Shown here: positions 52,463 to 64,000 of the stretch, piece after piece
How the letters are laid out: every line of letters begins with the position of its first letter
How positions within the stretch are numbered: the first letter of the stretch is position 1
Origin: Crambe crambe
Taxonomy: Eukaryota > Porifera > Demospongiae > Poecilosclerida > Crambeidae
DNA: 64,000 nucleotides
Reading direction: 5' to 3'
NCBI GenBank assembly: GCA_963924555.1
Contig: OZ004581.1
Coordinates: forward strand, 3,658,001-3,722,000
Position numbers and translations under genes: made by a program
Notes under the pieces: generated by a model
Database searches by the model: none
Told to the model about the DNA's origin: nothing
What the model saw: only the letters and a program-made list of their open reading frames with translations

Positions 52463-54060
52463 AATTATCACAATAGCTACCAGGATCAAAAACTGACAGT
52501 TATGGGCCTGTATGAGCCTAAGATGACGGGTAACAAAAAAGTTGGCCACAAGGACACTCCAGTTTTCTAGCATTCAGTCCAGCACCACAATTGGGGCACT
52601 GTTTTACCAAACGAGTCACGATCCAGAAGGAAGCAGATCAACAATAGTTGAGCTCTGGCTCTATCCACGTGTCATGTTTAGCATGTGCATGCACAAGGTG
52701 ATAAAAGTAACACAAAAAATAATTACCTACACTAGTGTAATTGTACATGCATCTTTACATAGGTGTGAGTACATACTATTAACTGATGGTCACATGACTT
52801 GTGACCAATCAGATCCTCTAACACTTCTCAGTGTTTATTTCACACTTTAAGAATTGTGTTGAAGGTACATAGCGGAAGATCCACTAGAACTATGACCTTT
52901 CAGCCTCAGTCCTAAGTGCTTACAGTAAGATAGGAACTGAATGTCTCCTTTGGCATTTCACTGGGTTTCAAACAGGAAACCTAAGGAAATTACCTCATTT
53001 ATTTTATAAGACACTTATGCCTTGCCTAACAAACTTTCCGTCTTTTAATGAGGCACACTCAGATGATGCGAAAGTGCACGAGGTTACATAAATGCACGAG
53101 CCAAAGGCAAGTGCATTTATGTAACCTTATGCACTATCACATCATCCTCATGTGCACACATTAAATGACTTAAAGTTAACTAGGCATGTAATAACTATTA
53201 CTTATGGCTTAGCTATTTACATAGGTCATTAGCCTCATTCCCAAGCCTTTCCTCTCTCACTATCTCTCTTACTTGCACTCCAACCCTGTATGGAGGATTT
53301 ATCATGCAACTGACGTCACAAATTGCAAGCTTTTATTATTAACAGTGGAACCTCTGATATGGGACAATCTAGCTACCCCCAAATGATTTTATACGCAACT
53401 AATGGAAGGCTACCTCTGAAAGCGACCACCTCTTAGAGAAGAACATCACTGCTCATCAAAAAGGGCCTGAAGCTACTGCTAGCTAGTTTCAGTACAGTAC
53501 ACTATTATAATAGGGTAGGGGGTGTGGCTGTGGTGTGGCTTCCTGGCTGCCCGCTAAAGGTAATTTTTTAAATTGAAATTGACAGTCAGGAGTCCACAAA
53601 TTTGCTCGATGTTCGGAGGTGGAAGACTGGGATGCTAACTTTATTCTAGCTAATGGAGATAATAACGTCATGCAAACATAAAATTATTTTAGGTTGATAA
53701 TTAAAATTCTTTCTACCTCATGTGATACAGTGAGGCCTTCCTCTCATTTTACTCTTCTTCTTCATTTTTACCTCTACATGGGGTAAGAGTCCAAATAAGG
53801 GATCAAGACAGTGCAAACGAAAAGAAGGCTATGGTATTCTTCCTACTCCACTGAAAAAGTATTATCATAAACTCAAACTGAATATACTGTTCATTTTGAA
53901 TGGATCTTTTGAAAAAGTTCTACAATCACCTTGAACATGCTTTTACTACTTGTATTCAGTGATAGTGGACTATAGGTGCAGCATACATAGTCTCGCATGC
54001 GTGAGACTAGGTGCAGCATTAGATGTATGTATGGATCTTATGATGCTTACTTTTCTACAG
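52463..54060. other. Unassigned intron or intergenic stretch
   Basis: No exon supported. Contains a hairpin at about 53062-53155 (arms GTTACATAAATGCAC and complement), a pogo-type end at about 53344 (CAGTGGAACCTCTGATA), and a small palindrome GTCTCGCATGCGTGAGAC near 53991. Confidence 0.4.
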
Positions 54061-55293
54061 AATTTTTCTGGGCCCATGTGTACCTTCAACCATTGGAAAC
54101 TCTTCTTATTGTATGTGTGAGTCAGAAGCTAATTTCTAAAGGTGAGACTCATGACAGCTAATGCAATTAATGTGACTTCACTTTCTGTAATACAGTAAAA
54201 AGTACCTACCATCAAATATCGTGGTATTGTCAAGAAGTGTTTGACTGTCAAACAAGCCAGATATTTCCATTGAACTACACAGTGAAGACTGTACACATAA
54301 AAGTAGCTACAGCTGTGGTTTCCGTAGCATTCATTGCTGCCAGTATCATCTTCTATCTACTATTGCTCTCTGGGGATGTGGAATTGAACCCTGGGCCAGC
54401 CATTTTCTCTGGCAAGGACTATAGTTAAATTCTTGAATTGTATATGCATGAGATAGCTACTATTTCCTTTTGTAGTTTCATTCTTCCTTTGCTTCATCGG
54501 GATGACTTCTGTCCACCTAGTGCACGCACCAGTCATTCGTCAAGTGATGAGTGACAACAACACTACAGGAGAAGGTGCAACTGGTAGCACATCCCTCCCT
54601 CCATCCCTCTCTGGTACGGCTGTTATGAATCAGTGGACCATTCCACTTGAATGGAGTGGTGGAATGGAATACTGGAACACTTTTTTTTTGTTATTGTTTG
54701 TATGTGAGCAAACAAATGTACCTATCCTTCACTCTCTCAGCCTATTCCCATGCCCTTCACTCCAGGTGCGTCCATTTCGTCATCCGCTCCCAGGGATAAC
54801 TATTTTCTCCTATGATTATGCTTCATATCTGGATTCTTGCAAAAATATTCCAAGCCATTTTTCCCACCATAGGACAAGGAATTGAGTGCCAGTCTTGATT
54901 ACCACATTATTTTGGAGATACCTAAAATTAATATATCATTTCCCAGCTCAGAAATACACACAAACAACTTCTTTTTTTACTGTGGAAGTCCAGCAACTCC
55001 TTTGGTCCCTTCCCTCTTGTATATTATAAATAAAAAATGAATTCCAGTATTCCATTCCACCATTCCATTCCAGTGGAATGGTCCACTGATTCATAACGGC
55101 CCTCTGGTACAGTATTCTATAATAATTATTATGTAATATTATCTAAATAATTGTAATGTTAACTCAGGTAATTCTGATAGTGACATTGCCGGAATTGTAA
55201 CAGGTGTCTTTGGAATGCTTACTGGCCTCATTGGAGCTATCATTGCTATTGCTGTCTTTAGCTTCAATGTGTGGAAACATTGCCTTCAACCAG
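54061..55293 (+). CDS. Membrane-segment exons with a 2A ribosome-skipping motif
   Basis: Four exons, all phase 1 at both ends: 54061-54141, 54196-54411, 54476-54583 and 55168-55293. Exon 2 ends in a run of about 22 hydrophobic residues (VATAVVSVAFIAAS, then YLLLL) directly followed by SGDVELNPGP (DVELNPGP at 54375-54398). That is the full 2A consensus, where the ribosome skips the last Gly-Pro bond. Exon 2 must use a GC donor (GCAAGG at 54412) or else stops at TAA 12 codons after the motif. Exon 3 continues with a second leader-like stretch (SFFLCFIGMTSVHLVHA). Exon 4 encodes a transmembrane helix (GIVTGVFGMLTGLIGAIIAI) and a short basic tail. The products would be a membrane-anchored piece ending in the 2A and a second membrane protein. 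Exon linkage and 5-prime end are unproven. Confidence 0.5.
54612..55110. mobile_element. MITE with GAATCAGTGGACCATTCC arms
   Basis: About 500 bp. Arms TATGAATCAGTGGACCATTC and GGTGGAATGGAATACTGGAA mirrored at 55048-55110. It lies in the intron between the third and fourth exons of the 2A-containing model. The open frame at 54600-54885 runs into it and is not coding. Confidence 0.85.
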
Positions 55294-55603: not shown

Positions 55604-58600
55604 TGCGTCTCAAAATTGAACCTAATGGTACCAATGTCATTGGAAAAGATTACTCTCTAACATGTACTGCCATGACTGATATTCCTGGGGACACATTTGA
55701 ATTTTCTTGGATCTATAACAATGCTCCTGTTGATGGAAAGGTTGACTCCAGTGATACAAAGAGCAAACTGTCATTTGAACCCCTGAATGGTTCTCATAAA
55801 GGAGAATACACTTGTAAATGTTCACTAAAGCAGAGACGTGGATGCTTTTCAAGGATATTGCTTCCAAACTTAGACGGTTCGATATCATACCACTTGGATG
55901 TAACTGGTAAGCACCACCATGAACCGATCATAGAGGGCCATATTGTGAAAATAGTGTCATTTACCCTTTACTTCCAGACCCTATCATTTCAGCCACTATC
56001 AAGGATGATAAGTATCCAATAGTTGGAAAAAGTTATAAACTGGAATGCACTATAACTGGAGCAGAAGGTTTCACTCCCAAGTACCAATGGATGCGTGATG
56101 ACGTTGATATTCAAGGAGAGACAACTCACTCACTCTCCTTTGATTGCCTCAAATTCTATGATAGAGGACGCTATAGATGTAGAGTCACCATTGAGTGTGA
56201 TCTCCTCACTGAACCTCTCTCTGGCACAAGTAATCCTGTGGATGTACGACTAAGTGGTATGTTAGAATTACCATATTTATATATAAGAGAGTCCTTATTG
56301 TATGTTGCTATTATTAAACAGTGAGAGATTAAGAATGTGTGTATAGCTATGTGTGTGCCAATCTAAATTGCAATCCTAAAACACCACATCATAATCAAGA
56401 AAATGTAGTGTATTATAAATACTGAAGTTTATGGTATTTTGGTAATTGGAGGGCTAGGGCTAGTGCTTTGGGAGTCTCCCACACTATGATGGTACCTGCA
56501 TATTTTTTTCTACAAAAAATGTATCACAGTCAGGGATGGATCCAGGGTCCTATCCCCCAGTCTGTGATTTTATGATAAAACCTTATCACACATTTATGTG
56601 GATCATACCCAACAAAAAAATTACCTCCCATCTAATATGCCAAGGGTCCTGAGAGAACAACAGTATAGTAGAAGTGATTTTCTGGCCAGCCCCTTTCATG
56701 TGGAATATCTCTGTGATCCAACCCTTTGCAGTATTTACAAGAAGCATTAATTCCTGGTCACATGACATTTGACCAATCAAATTCCTTAAAAACTGTACTT
56801 AAACTGCAATTTGCAGAGCCACAGAGTGCCTAGACTCATACCCAGGCTCAGTTACTGAGAGTTCTTTTATAGAATTACCTGTTCAGCAAAACGCAATAGG
56901 TTTTTCAACCAGGAATGTAGTCAATGGAAGTTGATCATAGTTAATGTCATAAATTCCAACAAAACATTGAAACCGGACAAGCACAGTCAATTAGTAGCTG
57001 ATATAAATGGCTAGCTTCTACTATAGGAGGGACCATTACAGTCTATACTAAGAAGACCTGTGATTGTCGAACGTTTAATCAATTGAACTCATGATTACAA
57101 CAAGTCATGAACATAATTAAAATGCAGTGAAAGCCAGTATTGCAGGCTGGTGCAGCTATTATGCATGCGGTCATGCAAATAGTCATGAATCATGGGCATG
57201 CCTTCTCAGTGGGCAAACACTCTGGTCGAGGGGTGAAAGTTTCGTGATTTCTCTTCTGTCCGCGAATATTTAACCACGCTAATCACTTTGGCAAATCTCG
57301 CTCAGGCCAGACTCTTCACTAGAGTTGTGTCTACGGTCTTCATCATAAAAAAGTTTCCGTTGCGTTGCCGTACAACGTCCGTAGAACGCTCAAGCGTTGT
57401 AAAAAAAACCGTGTGCGAACGCTTTATGAACGCAAAGCAGGCGTTTGCGTTGAACGGCCCAATTAAACGTACGTAGTTGGGTTCGAAATTACTAAACGTT
57501 TTTACGGTATGAAAGCACGCAGTTATTCCAGCAAAAACGTTCATCAGCAGCAGATCGACAGCGAGATGACCTGCAGGCAGTCTCCGAGGAAGGCCTTGAG
57601 CTCTACGTAGCTAGATATCGACTTGTGCATGCTAGTGGTGGTACAATTTCTTCTGCCTTCATCGTGTCTGTAAAGTTTCATCTCACTGATAATAGAACAT
57701 CATGGTGGTGTTATACTATAGCTAGCTGTAAGTGCAGAACTAGCTAGCTAGCTAGCTCTAGTGCCAACATAAGCTAGTCAGCTTAGAGAGATAGCTAGTC
57801 AGCCTAGAGAGATAGCTACGCATAGTTCTATAAGCTTTTAGGCTTAGGGTTACGTTTTATAATATCGTTTTTTCACCTACGTACGTACATGGCTATACTT
57901 CTTACCGTTTCTTCGTGAACGTTGAACAGGCGTGCAACGCTTGATGTTAAACGGTGTAGAAAATTAAACGCACGGGGGACTGTGTGAAAACGGTAACGGT
58001 CAAGGCGTGCAACGCCAGTTCTACGTGGACGGAACGGGGACTTTTTTTTGCAGCCTACCGTAGTTCATGTGTCTGTGATTCTACAACGGATAGACTCACC
58101 TCGCTGAAGAAATCAGAGCTTCGAGGCGGCAGAACATCTGTCATCGCTATGCCATGGCAAAAGGATCGCTGCACAATATAATGCTTCGCTAACTACAGCA
58201 CTCCAGATATCGTTTTAAATTTAACCTCTCTAGCTAGAACTCAGTCTCAAACGAAAGATAGCCTGCCACCGAAGCTTCAGCTAGCTACCTCATAGCTCTG
58301 TGTGCATGCATACACGCACATGGCTGCTGGCCAGGTTTTTTTTTGTTTTTGTTTTTTGTTGTTGTTGTTTTTTTCAAAATCTAAACCGTGAATGATTTTC
58401 CCCGCAAAATAAGACTAATCGCGAAACTTTTGCCCCTTGAGATATATAGTACCTCTTTAACTTTTTGTTACTACTACCATTGAAGAGTTGATTTTCACAT
58501 AGACTATCATTGTTAATTTCGAACTTTTCGACTCTTAATTCCAAGGAAAAGGCAGCACCTGAATCAAGGTGGTGAAATTATGAAGAGAGGAGCTTCAGGT

Positions 58601-61600
58601 ACTTGCTGTTAAAGAGTGGAGGACCTACTGCAGTTCGCATCAGGTTGTCCAGTGAACTGCTGAAGTGGACAGCATCAAGAATTTTCACCTTGTAACTGAC
58701 TGACCCTCCCCTCTCCATCAGGGGACCTGCATAGCAGTTTTGTAGAGGATTGAGACATCCAGCATACATAGCTGCAGTCCATGGAAATGTTCAGCCAATT
58801 TCCATATTCCTGACTTTAAATGCACATTGAAACCCAACAAACACAGTCAAGTAAGCGTTATAAAATGGCTGGCTCTTCTGCTATAGCTAATGGCAGAAGG
58901 TGCCTTTGTTGTGGCCAGAGTGACCTCTAAAAATACAAACTTTAGCCTAGCTCATCAACTCTCTTACCACTGTGATATCACTATGAAAGTTCTTCAAACC
59001 TAGACAACCAAATGATAATGCATTAGCTATACTATACAAGTCTGGTAACTATCAGCAATTAATTTCATGATTTTAAGGTTTAATTTAGCAGAAGTTTTCA
59101 TATTAATTCCAATACTGGTACTAGACGAGATAGAGACAATACATCTTTCTGTGAATTTGCTTGGTAACTTCCTCGAAATACCGCATTTCAAACTTTCATT
59201 TTAAAAAGTCTTTGCAGGCTATATCCATCAGTTGGAGTAAATCAGTAGTGTTGGCTGGAAGTAAGTATATATACATGGATGTTATGGGCTTCAGGAAGAT
59301 TGTTGATTGTGCTGCCTTTAAGTTATCCATTAAAGCAGGACATCAACTCAGTAAAGTTATTGGAAGTCTGTGTCTAGCCTCATTGATGCAAAATGGTTGG
59401 TGGAATGGCGGAATACATCTCAGACAACCCCCAATTCTGAATGGAATTTGCAGAACACATGATAGAGATGCCAGGAAGAATCTGAAGACAAATCAGAAAA
59501 TGAGAATCTGATAATGAATCTGATGAAGATTATTTTTTCCAGCAATGAGAGTGACTGATAGCTAAAATATTATGTCTTATCCACTGCTTTAGCTTGACCT
59601 TTGCTTTGAACAACGGGCCACACGGAATCTCTTGGCCTCCTTGAAATAGATCTGCTGAGTGCCTTCTCCCTCCAGTTACTGTGCAGCATATGGATCTTCT
59701 TCTTCTTAGAAAGTGTGAGGCAATCTTTGAAATCTTTCTTGGAAGATGTCCAGTAATGGTAACAGCAACAGTGTACCTATTGCTAGAGTTTTCAGGTTCT
59801 CTTCTGCAAGAAAACTGTTTTCCGCATGCCATTATTTTGATACACATTTTAGCCTCTGATCCACCGCAGTACTTCCAAATCTTCCATAGTTGAACTGGCT
59901 AGCTAGCTAGCTAGCTATGGCATGTTTATCATGTGCACATTATGTGCTATATTTTTTGCGTTTTGGTCAGAGTGTGTGTGTGAAATTAATTTTTCAATAT
60001 GTGAATTATTACATACTGACCACGCAAACATCATAAATTGCTATTTTCTATACTTTCAGAGCCAAGCATTTCTGCCACTCTTAAGGATAGTGTTTGTCCG
60101 ACATTGGGAGAGCAATACTCACTGGAGTGCACAATATCTGCAACAGACTGTCTCATTGAGTATCATGATACGACTTGTGAAATAACATGGTACAAGAATG
60201 GAACAAGGTTACACACAGATTATCTTCAATTATCGAATGCTAAATCTGTTCAGTATGAATTGGAATCCCTCAAATACTCTCATAGGGGACGCTACACATG
60301 TGAAGTCACCATTACATGTGGTCTAGTAAATGCACTCCCCAGAACTGCATCCCTCAAAGCCACAAGTAATCAAGTGGATGTTCAACTAAGTGGTATGTTA
60401 GTTTATATGCATTTGTTGTATATTTATGTCTATAATTGCCTAGTGCAATTACCTAACCAAACTGCACAAAAAAAAAATTGATTACTTGTATCAGCCTGGG
60501 CAGCTGCATGTAGGAAGCTGTTTATGTGAACCTGTAATGCTTGCCACAAAACACTTACTTAAGCCTAGGGTGGCCTATTAGGCCAACAATCCACTTAGAT
60601 AAGAATGCTGTAGAAATCAATCTACCCAGTGGAGTAGGAACAGAAGAAATAACCACTAGCAGTGCACTGTAGTGTGAATTAACAACTTGTACAACAATGA
60701 ATGTACACATTCCATGCATCTTGTATCTTTTATTATATAACACTTCTATAATCATGCTGTAGTATTATTGCAGCTAGCGAGCTGACTCTCAGGTCATGAC
60801 TCATTGAAATTTTAAATAATCTAGGTCTACACTCCAAAATGCTAGTATTGCGGGCCCGACCCTTTACCAACCGCGAGGGAAGGAAAGAGTCTGGTCAAAT
60901 CCAATACATGATCTTGTTGTGCACAGTCAGCAATCTTCTGAAGGAAGGGCCCGGCTATGACGTTATTATACATCACAAATTTTAGGAAAAATCTGCACTC
61001 CGGATTTCTTAGCACCACATGGCTGAGCAGGAATATGATTACAGATTGGAGGCGGCTATCCAAGAGAGTGGGAGGAGGCTTGGAAACAGCTTTCTGGTCA
61101 GAAAGTGTCGGAATTTTTTTCAGTGCAACTCCTGCAAGTACCTGGAGCAGTTCTTTGGCTGATGCACACCCTGGACCATGCAGCCTTTTCTTTTTCCTAT
61201 GATCACTACCAATGAGATCTCTGCACAAGCAGCAGCTGGTTAACATGACTAAACTCATAGGACTACTCTAGCTCTGCAAGTGCACGCGCGAAAAAAATCG
61301 TTTGAGAGCCGTGACGTATCGTGACGTTTTGCGCATGCCCGCCACCAAATCTTTGGCAAGTTGAAACAAGATCATGTATTGGATTTGACCAGACTCTTTC
61401 CTTCCCTCGCGGTTGGTAAAGGGTCGGGCCCGCGAGACTACCAAAATGCCCCAGGCATACATACATACATGTACATACGTGTCCCGAAATAGTAGCACTG
61501 TGCGTGTGCATAATGCGCATGCTCCAATTGTTTTCTACAGCCTTTTGTCATAGAGGTGCTAGCTTATTTAAGTGGATTGTAGGCACTTGTTATCCAAGTG

Positions 61601-64000
61601 CTTGTGGTAAATATTTACAGCTTTCTATATATGGAGCTTCCCAGTTGGAACCACAACTTACATGACTCTTGTCTCTGACAGCAATATGAAGCACTGGAGC
61701 CTATCAGCTGCTCACTTGCTCACTGTCAAATGCTGCACATTGCTATAGTAGTCGTTGTAGAGGCTCTAGGCTTATTTACGTAAGTACTTTGTTACATATA
61801 AACTCAACAGCAAATCTTCGAAAGAGTTGTAGCACTAACTTGCTTGCTCGCTCACTGTCAAAATTAATGTTGCACATTGCCCGTTCCCAGGCCTTCCTCT
61901 CCACCTCACAAAATTAACGCCTGGGAATGAGGCTAGTATTATAAGGGAAAAACCATTTCGTGAAATGAAAAAAGAAGTAGGGATGACCACTGCTCAAAAA
62001 AGTAAGGAAACAAGAAGGATGGAAATGGGATCAATCTTTGTTCTGTATATCCAGCTAACAATCCCTACATATACGTCGGGTAGCTTCAGATTATAGTGCA
62101 GTAATATACGTATATGTAGGGATTGTTGGCTGGATATACAGAACAAAGATTGATCCCATTTCCATCCTTCTTGTTTCCTTACTTTTTTGAGCAGTGGTCA
62201 TCCCTACATCTTTTTTCATTTCACGAAATGCTTTTTCCCTTACTTGTTCCTGGTCTTTTTCCCTCTCTTTTATGGTTTTAGCTATGTATAGAGTTCATTC
62301 TTCTATGCAGGGACAGATGGAATAAGAATAGTTCTCCAATAGCATAGCAACGAGTCAAGGTGTTGTGTTATTGTTGAGCTATACTTAGAGGTCGAATATG
62401 CTAAAATAGAGTCTACCGGTAGCTGGATTGGTGAATCTAAAATCCCCAAATCGATAGTGTAGTCATTATCTAGAGATAGCTGAGTAACATTATAATTTCG
62501 AATAATTAGATATCAAATACATGCGCATGCGTATTATAGGCTTCATAATTGAACTAGTCGAGTGCTGTGCTCCGTAGTGTCTCCTTTTTTCATCGACTCT
62601 TTCGAGGATCAACGAGTAGAGTGGTTCAAGAGATATGGTTGTCTAAGAAGAATAATAATAAGAAGAAGAATAATAATAGTAGAGAAGAAGAAGAATCTAG
62701 CGATTTACCTGCTTGCCGTATTTCAGAAACGGTAAGCTTCCTGGTCCTGAAACTTGGTCTGCACATTGTAGTAGGCTCTAGTAGGCTGGATAATCATTCA
62801 CAGTAGCTTTTGTTAGGTCTAAGTGGGGGAACTAGAATTTCACTTTTGTATTAGTCTAAAGGCAGCGCGCGCGGCCGTCCGAGTCATCCCTACATAGAGA
62901 GTGCTACTGCACTCTCTAATATATGTTTGTGGCAGAAAATTTTAAAATATGCACTTATTCGACACTAGCTTATTTCATACTTGCAACATTTTCTTGAAGC
63001 CATAATGCTGATTTGAATTCCTGTTGGCTTCGCCTCCAAGGCTATCAGTTAAATCGATCATGCCTGGATATATAGATTGCATGTGAGTTTAAAATTAATG
63101 ATCCATCGATTGATCCATCAATTGATCCATTGATTGAACTCTGTGAGCTTTAGTGAATTTTTGAACACAAACATTGTTCCTTATAATTATAGGAGCAAAT
63201 CTGAAATGGTTATAAGCAAAGAGAGTGCAAGCAAAATCTTTTGGTGACTACACCCACTATGTGATCAACAGTTATACTATGGTAACATAGTACTTACCAT
63301 CAATGATCATGTACCATGAGAGTATACTATTTTACGGTCACGCTGTCACATTTTGCATTTTTTTTGATGTATTCAGAACCAAAACTCAAAGCTACTTTAT
63401 CTCTTCATCCAAAAGATGGTAACCTAGTTCTGGGGAAAAAATATGAACTGAAATGCAACCCTGAATTGGATATTCCAGGAATGGATATTGATTGTTCCAA
63501 ACTTGATTGTACCTACAAGTGGCACAAAAAAGGAAAAGAAGAACCCATAGACATTACAACAAAAGGAATCCTTAGCTTGAAATCTTTTGAATTTTCTGAT
63601 GCTGGATGCTATACTTGTACAGTTACTGTTAAAAAAAATAATCTTCTTGATAGTGACCTAACGGTCACAGAAGAAAGAGATGTGGAAGCAGTACTAGGTA
63701 AGACAAGATATGTTTTGTCTGTTCAAAGGAATGCATTGTGTAAAGCAAGGATTTGTGCAATAATATTATTATGAGGGATGGAGCCTGATGTTGGATAAAT
63801 GGGGGGAAGGAGGGGGGGTGGGGGCAGGAGATCCCTCAGAGGATATTCCTAATCCCGAGTCTTGAGTGCTTTTATGCTCAGCACTTACCAACTCTATATT
63901 CCAATTATTGCAGCAGAAAAATGCCGGGAAGAAATGAAGGAGAAGTATAAAACGATGCAGTTTGACCCCATTGATAACAATTGGACAAGGAGGCATGTGA
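55604..64000 (+). CDS. Multi-Ig-domain gene, runs off the right edge
   Basis: Four Ig exons, each phase 1 at both ends: 55604-55906, 55978-56256, 60060-60392 and 63377-63697. Then a fifth exon opens at 63914 and continues past the window. Each Ig exon has the B-strand Cys, core Trp (FSWIYN, YQWMRD, ITWYKN, YKWHKK) and the Y-x-C F-strand signature (GEYTCKC, GRYRCRV, GRYTCEV, GCYTCTV). Extra Cys pairs occur in domains 3 and 4. Domains 2 and 3 share ISAT-x-KD near the start and DV-x-LSG at the end, so one arose by exon duplication. The fifth exon (EKCREEMKEKYKTM, then FDPIDNNWTRRHV) is charged and helical and looks intracellular. It may precede a nucleotide-binding or kinase domain, which I cannot see. 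Role is likely recognition or adhesion. The 5-prime partner is unknown; phase permits joining to 55293. Confidence 0.75.
57329..58065. mobile_element. Non-autonomous element with AACG/CGTT subterminal arrays
   Basis: Imperfect inverted ends CTACGGT with AAAAAAGTTTCCGTT (57329-57360) and the complement at 58033-58065. Both ends are packed with AACG, AAACG or ACGG words: about 57350-57540 and 57905-58030. Clustered subterminal hexamers of AAACGG type are known transposase-binding sites in hAT elements. No ORF of note. Confidence 0.55.
59530..59847 (-). pseudogene. HIRAN-like domain fragment
   Basis: Minus strand reads CRREPENSSNRYTVAVT, GHLPRKISKIASHFLRR, ICCTVTGGRRHSADL and GGQEIPCGPLFKAK. 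This order (N-x-D/N-RYAVAV, VGHLPRKIS, a basic stretch, then CxVTGxRR and GGLEIPC) matches HIRAN-like modules found in many cnidarian and sponge uncharacterised and transposon-associated proteins. No flanking start, splice partner or second domain is visible, and the WxPxxGE-type start is absent. A stray or decayed piece. Confidence 0.5.
60846..61442. mobile_element. Inverted-repeat element, GACCCTTT family, copy 3
   Basis: Arms of about 85 bp: GCGGGCCCGACCCTTTACC, AACCGCGAGGGAAGGAAAGA and CAAATCCAATACATGATCTT at the left and mirrored at 61355-61442. Interior minus frame 60842-61258 is open for 138 codons (partly arm sequence) with no domain I know. Lies in the intron between Ig exons 3 and 4. 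Confidence 0.88.
61947..62245. mobile_element. Palindromic MITE, AGCAGTGGTCATCCCTAC family, copy 3
   Basis: The fullest copy. Outer AAGGGAAAAA with ATTTCGTGAAAT palindrome, spacer, GTAGGGATGACCACTGCTC, then long arms to a centre near 62090, and the mirror image. Defines the end structure for the two copies at 47.9-48.4 kb. Confidence 0.9.
62885..62917 (-). repeat. GTAGGGATG-hairpin core motif, copy 5
   Basis: CATCCCTAC (62885-62893), stem AGAGAGTGC (62896-62904), loop TACT, arm GCACTCTCT (62909-62917). The TGC/GCA pairs replace TAC/GTA of copies 1 and 2 and remain perfectly paired. Confidence 0.85.

Follow-up and report, generated by a model that had tools for sequence, protein, structure and literature searches.

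When a membrane segment runs directly into a 2A ribosome-skipping motif inside a host-like gene, does the gene make two proteins from one reading frame, or does it choose between two destinations? A locus in the sponge Crambe crambe raises this question. It lies in the window, by which we mean the whole 64,000-nucleotide stretch of DNA analyzed here (C1:3658001-3722000, in a genome of 143.1 Mb and 119 contigs); coordinates without a contig name are positions within it.

The 2A exon and its gene model

The exon that carries the motif (exon 3 of our model, 54196-54411) is open throughout one frame, with the translation VKSTYHQISWYCQEVFDCQTSQIFPLNYTVKTVHIKVATAVVSVAFIAASIIFYLLLLSGDVELNPGPAIFS. In that frame the DVELNPGP core is preceded by ...VATAVVSVAFIAASIIFYLLLLSG, and the exon ends in IIFYLLLLSG-DVELNPGP-AIFS, the membrane segment running into the 2A core and AIFS following it. 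The acceptor ACAG ends at 54195, the donor is a GC at 54412-54413, there is no stop between them, and the gene model gives phase 1 on either side. The first-pass annotation had described a complete D-V/I-E-x-N-P-G-P after a hydrophobic run in a phase-matched exon, and this description holds: as in 2A/StopGo sequences, a D(V/I)ExNPGP core is in frame within a coding exon. The skip would be predicted between the Gly and the final Pro. The model contains the following features.

53937-53958, plus strand: candidate exon 1 (MLLLLVF..) with the start codon; ATG in 9/9 copies by eye, donor GTGATA, phase 1
54061-54141, plus strand: exon 2 (KFFWAHVYLQPLETLLIVCVSQKLISK); 81 bases in 9/9 copies
54196-54411, plus strand: exon 3, with a fast-changing segment, the first transmembrane segment (TM1), the 2A and AIFS; 9/9 copies, KD19 peak 2.69
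54375-54398, plus strand: 2A core DVELNPGP; from the translation and the nine-copy alignment
54476-54613, plus strand: exon 4, a signal-like segment (VSFFLCFIGMTSVHLVHA) and a T/S-rich linker; tblastn in 9/9 copies, KD19 peak 2.01
55168-55293, plus strand: exon 5, second TM with positive residues on its C-side; 9/9 copies, some with in-frame deletions, KD19 peak 2.35
55604-55906, plus strand: Ig exon 1; Pfam Ig_3; 8/9 copies, the sequence covered for the ninth (L004) ending short
55978-56256, plus strand: Ig exon 2; Pfam I-set/Ig_3
60060-60392, plus strand: Ig exon 3; Pfam Ig_3 3.6e-8, acceptor and donor found
63377-63697, plus strand: Ig exon 4; Pfam Ig_3 4.3e-6, at 27.6 bits under the curated cut-off of 30
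63914-64000, plus strand: start of the NACHT exon, which continues to 65445 in the adjoining L068; Pfam NACHT 7.4e-19

The predicted order is a TM, the 2A, a signal-like segment, a TM, four Ig domains and a NACHT that reaches past the window end. The model has ten exons, with every intron in phase 1, and encodes 1116 residues, of which 101 lead up to NPG and 1015 start from the last Pro. TM and Ig exons had been proposed downstream of the motif at first reading, which did not extend to the NACHT; exon 5 and the first two Ig exons are present, and the latter together match Pfam Ig_3 at 6.1e-15. Our signal-peptide and topology readings are based on Kyte-Doolittle hydropathy and inspection. No part of the model is less certain than exon 1, which rests on 22 bases. 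Another upstream ATG, at 53900, was rejected: its frame cannot be carried into exon 2 free of stops, and other copies show non-triplet indels in that place (by eye).

Searching the genome with the TM-2A stretch gave nine matches with 95-100% identity. Every one lies on the C1 plus strand, in the interval 3.55-3.99 Mb, and the best match beyond them has an E of 0.003. With nine tandem copies of exon 3, a single-copy oddity is ruled out. These copies are 216, 219, 225 or 228 bases long, each length divisible by three, and all nine have the acceptor in common. The donor is GT in 7/9 and GC in 2/9 (the window copy and C1:3553873), and since the paralogous copies show a donor at this position, the GC donor at 54412, already predicted from the window by itself, is correctly placed. 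A search with the NACHT part gave nine close relatives; each 2A exon is paired with one of them, 3.6-17.1 kb downstream on the same strand, and in the copy at C1:3893713 Ig exons were located further downstream.

This arrangement bears on whether there are in fact two genes, the TM-2A exon closing a small upstream one and the Ig-NACHT part being separate with its own start. Some of the model introns between Ig exons span several kb, which favors such a split, but order and strand are fixed in 9/9 copies, phase 1 continues across the model, and exon 4, whose hydrophobic start ends in V-H-A, has no Met ahead of its hydrophobic core. We consider two genes very unlikely.

Two repeats were also noted. 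At the exon 4 donor sits a terminal-inverted-repeat insertion (54618-55101; ends GGC[T/C]GTTATGAATCAGTGGACC, 9-base duplication CTCTGGTAC) found in 2/9 copies, those of the window and C1:3553873, and upstream of the gene lies a short inverted repeat (53082-53126; GGTTACATAAATGCAC / GTGCATTTATGTAACC) seen by eye in 3/9 copies.

Across the nine copies, the last 33 codons up to NPGP contain six synonymous and zero amino-acid changes; the 40-codon stretch that starts at TVKT and ends with NPGP has nine variable codons, seven synonymous and two nonsynonymous, both of the latter before the TM. As uncorrected counts summed over non-independent pairs, pN/pS is 0.07 for the TM and 2A stretch (TVKT to NPGP; nine copies, 36 pairs), 0.71 for the pre-TM part of exon 3 (nine copies), 0.33 for exon 2 (nine copies) and 0.48 for exon 4 (8/9 copies). 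TM1 and 2A are the best-kept part of the 5' end of the gene, since pN/pS is lowest there. The 2A motif is kept by protein-level selection, to which the TM may contribute; a TM by itself can preserve hydrophobic residues. Cysteines in the segment before TM1 are not conserved across every copy. Damage is apparent in three or more of the copies (one NACHT contains a TAA, another is split, and one Ig exon has a stop), and the selection signal may therefore be partly historical. Altogether, nine tandem copies with a common exon structure, purifying selection on TM and 2A, and Ig and NACHT downstream bear out the earlier assignment of the motif to a host gene.

Hydrophobic-2A leaders across the genome

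Codon patterns for the motif matched 207 places genome-wide, 167 for DVExNPGP and 40 for DIExNPGP. Reversed-pattern controls gave 0 each, and by arithmetic about 0.1 match to the DVE pattern is expected at uniform base composition; a chance motif is ruled out by the controls (0 versus 207). The motifs lie mostly in tandem clusters and are spread on many contigs. Leaving the first Pro free gave 208 matches, consistent with the 207 plus one DMELNPGP, and a Pro was present at that site in all of the first 100 of the 208 matches listed. The DMELNPGP variant (C5:9085034-9085059, minus strand) is close to the C5 leader cluster. In the loci examined, 38 of 41 distinct leaders reach a mean hydropathy of at least 2.0 over 12 residues at no more than 30 residues from the motif, the three lowest values being 1.82, 1.69 and 1.44; among 2000 random open 30-mers from the window, 13.5% reach the threshold.

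It might be argued that the motif has no activity, or too little to have an effect, and that the leader is a signal or TM segment whose end by chance keeps the 2A form. Damage to some of the nine copies would agree with this, but the exact matches, clustered on many contigs where the controls found none, and the Pro kept at the freed site argue against it, and we think it unlikely.

For placement we used 203 of the 207 motifs, the omitted four being DVE places, one of them in L021. By Death-type we mean similarity to the Death-type queries used. With 150 of 321 and 150 of 491 first-look candidates scored, and hence as lower bounds, at least 83/203 motifs are followed on the same strand by a Death-type exon no more than 1.5 kb away, and for at least 75/203 the distance is within 500 bases; among the matches listed, 120/203 have none within 1.5 kb, and within 3 kb 0/203 have one upstream and 0/203 one on the other strand. 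Seen from the other side, a placed 2A lies no more than 1.5 kb upstream of 83 of the 300 Death-type stretches listed (two queries), and most have none. For the placement of NACHT, one split NACHT was treated as a single domain and overlapping rows were counted once. These counts are also lower bounds (103 of 232 and 98 of 198 first-look candidates scored): at least 12/203 motifs have a NACHT within 6 kb downstream, with 0 upstream and 0 on the other strand among the matches listed, and within 20 kb the figures among the matches listed are at least 22 of 203 downstream, 9 upstream (tandem arrays) and 0 on the other strand.

Pfam recognized Death after the 2A in L047 (1.5e-9), L030 (7.7e-8), L024 (3.3e-6) and L019 (2.4e-5), NACHT in L020 (2.3e-23) and NB-ARC in L038 (1e-8). 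Death matches in L050 and L056 fell under the curated cut-off, and in the exons of L025, L061, L062 and L070 Pfam did not recognize Death. A profile comparison linked the Pfam-unrecognized set A2 at 97.6% (E 3.1e-12) to set A1, a mixed set of Pfam-positives, three unconfirmed or sub-threshold sequences and L020 (Pfam NACHT only). Searching the PDB by sequence with set A2 gave nothing useful. Elsewhere in the genome, hydrophobic-2A leaders appear to sit at the start of genes of the Death, NACHT, NB-ARC and ankyrin types. In the 2A exons of other families that were read, a likely splice site comes soon after the 2A, and the next exon is often of the Death type.

Several loci are individually worth recording. 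At L023 (C6:8357334) the 2A leader is followed by a long ankyrin-repeat ORF (Pfam 8.5e-74) instead of Death or NACHT. L070 (C10:4694701-4698700, with L063), which belongs to another leader family, has Pfam Ig (7.4e-7), NACHT (3e-12) and LRR_6 (6.5e-8) downstream, together with a Death-type exon recognized by similarity. At C9:306738-572027 (L062, L069) a minus-strand tandem cluster consists mainly of DVESNPGP motifs at ~10 kb spacing, and a Death-type exon closely follows most of them. Many NACHT genes are found at C9:7.06-7.53 Mb, with no canonical 2A among the matches listed; three relatives adjoining this cluster, at 7.556-7.575 Mb, do have a canonical 2A, and the leader may have been lost or gained within this C9 family.

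Retrotransposons and viruses are known homes of 2A (PMC4981915, in the part available to us), and the motif could in principle stem from such an insertion. However, RVT_1 was found within 6 kb of the 203 motifs only at background, with one case downstream, one upstream and one on the other strand among the matches listed (lower bounds, 150 of 801 candidates scored), and none of the RVT_1 places among the matches listed is inside the window. A viral-contig scan with exon 3 gave 42 stretches that matched a short pattern, none of which was confirmed. The first-pass annotation had held that neither a reverse transcriptase nor an endonuclease follows the motif; what follows in the gene model is Ig-NACHT. 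On the candidates scored, we regard an origin by insertion as extremely improbable.

A possible pair of proteins from one frame

Judging from the sequence, we read the gene as a probable membrane Ig-NACHT (NLR-like) receptor in which one reading frame gives two proteins (probability roughly 0.6). In the sequence, a conserved TM abuts a canonical 2A and is followed by a signal-like segment, a T/S-rich linker, a TM, four Ig domains and NACHT. The ribosome would leave the Gly-Pro bond between NPG and P unformed and resume translation at the Pro. The first product would be a membrane protein of ~101 residues that ends in SGDVELNPG and bears the variable segment, and the second, of ~1015 residues, would begin with Pro. 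The first ~23 residues of this second product (PAIFSVSFFLCFIGMTSVHLVHA), now N-terminal, could serve as a signal peptide. It would then enter the membrane on its own and be anchored by the exon 5 TM, resulting in a type-I membrane receptor whose outside tail is short and whose Ig-NACHT part is cytosolic. Cytosolic Ig domains are unusual. Any unskipped fraction would be a single multi-spanning protein with its leader still attached, and the efficiency of skipping would therefore decide in what proportions the receptor is free or leader-tethered.

Alternatively, dual targeting may operate here too: the leader would be a detachable signal or anchor, the skip would release Ig-NACHT into the cytosol, with exons 4 and 5 either not inserting or being spliced out. 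The sea-urchin precedent (PMC4981915, as far as its available text goes) speaks for this, as do the Death-type exons that come within 500 bases of the 2A in other families, and since all introns are in phase 1, exons 4 and 5 could be skipped without a change of frame. Against it, both exons are conserved in 9/9 copies with hydrophobic cores, and we regard it as doubtful for the window family. There, two proteins seem to fit better than two destinations, since downstream of the skip the chain carries a signal-like segment and a TM of its own and would be membrane-bound either way. In families without a second signal, a skip would yield a cytosolic receptor and a failed skip a membrane-targeted one, as in the sea-urchin NLR model. 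Two destinations fit better for those other leader families that have a Death-type exon directly after the 2A; with so short a stretch after the 2A and a Death-type exon next, sea-urchin dual targeting is the simpler account there.

More tentatively, the two-protein reading can be extended to the genome. Hydrophobic-2A leaders might be an exchangeable N-terminal exon over ~200 intracellular immune-receptor genes of several architectures, and in the window family the skip might uncover a second, internal signal peptide, such that translation of one mRNA fixes a matched pair, in which an Ig-NACHT receptor bound to the membrane is accompanied by a membrane protein that is small and fast-changing. 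If the motifs do skip, then with ~200 in the genome skipping would be routine in the expression of this animal's innate immune receptors, there would be a concrete reason why sponge NLRs appear membrane-bound in predictions, and many natural leaders would be at hand for comparing efficiency with sequence. The presence of 2A leaders in sea urchin and here also raises a testable question, that of an old trait versus repeated invention.

Comparison with known systems

The 2A of non-LTR retrotransposons, reportedly described by Odon et al. in 2013, has the same octapeptide, but here reverse transcriptase occurs only at background. Rao et al. 2025 (Cell Rep) are said to have surveyed eukaryotic and viral 2A sequences, cellular proteomes included; it may include sponge sequences, which would limit any claim of novelty. 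In the open-licence literature, none of the matches listed dealt with 2A in the genes of sponges, and where '2A-like' appeared together with sponge and Amphimedon it was part of other gene names.

With viral 2A/StopGo sequences the window motif shares the core octapeptide and the Gly before it; viral 2A lies between viral proteins, whereas here the motif is in a host exon after a membrane segment (PMC12846837, in the passages at hand). The same passages call cellular use of 2A rare and state that activity depends on upstream context, chimeras often being inactive, and the available part of PMC11512398 names NLRs as the cellular case.

Among sponges, TM segments have been predicted in NLRs of Dysidea avara, with the first report credited to Amphimedon queenslandica (PMC12909245, available excerpts). 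The window family resembles these in that it is an expanded family of NACHT genes for which TM segments are predicted. Those excerpts make no mention of 2A; in the window family a 2A adjoins the TM, and the predicted TM may therefore be detached during translation.

The closest terms of comparison come from the sea urchin Strongylocentrotus purpuratus, where ~35% (85/241) of NLR proteins carry a 2A-like sequence at or near the N-terminus; one echinoderm NLR 2A leader gave ~80% recoding in vitro and acted as a signal sequence when recoding was blocked (Roulston et al. 2016, PMC4981915, in the sections accessible to us, which also underlie the comparisons below). As in sea-urchin NLR leaders, a hydrophobic leader abuts D(V/I)ExNPGP in the NACHT genes of an expanded immune family (PMC4981915), and the exon model together with the 9/9 pairing places NACHT in the same predicted gene as the 2A. 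A canonical Death/CARD-NACHT-LRR architecture was not seen, Pfam having given only Ig and NACHT, and no LRR, on pieces up to 65445. In sea-urchin leaders the 2A lies about 26 residues in, whereas the model puts the end of the window 2A at residue ~101; the window family has Ig rather than Death before NACHT; and its 2A is followed by a signal-like segment and a TM, with no cytosolic effector directly after (PMC4981915). What differs from this precedent is the second signal-like segment immediately after the skip site, the Ig-NACHT architecture, and the occurrence of such leaders on several receptor architectures.
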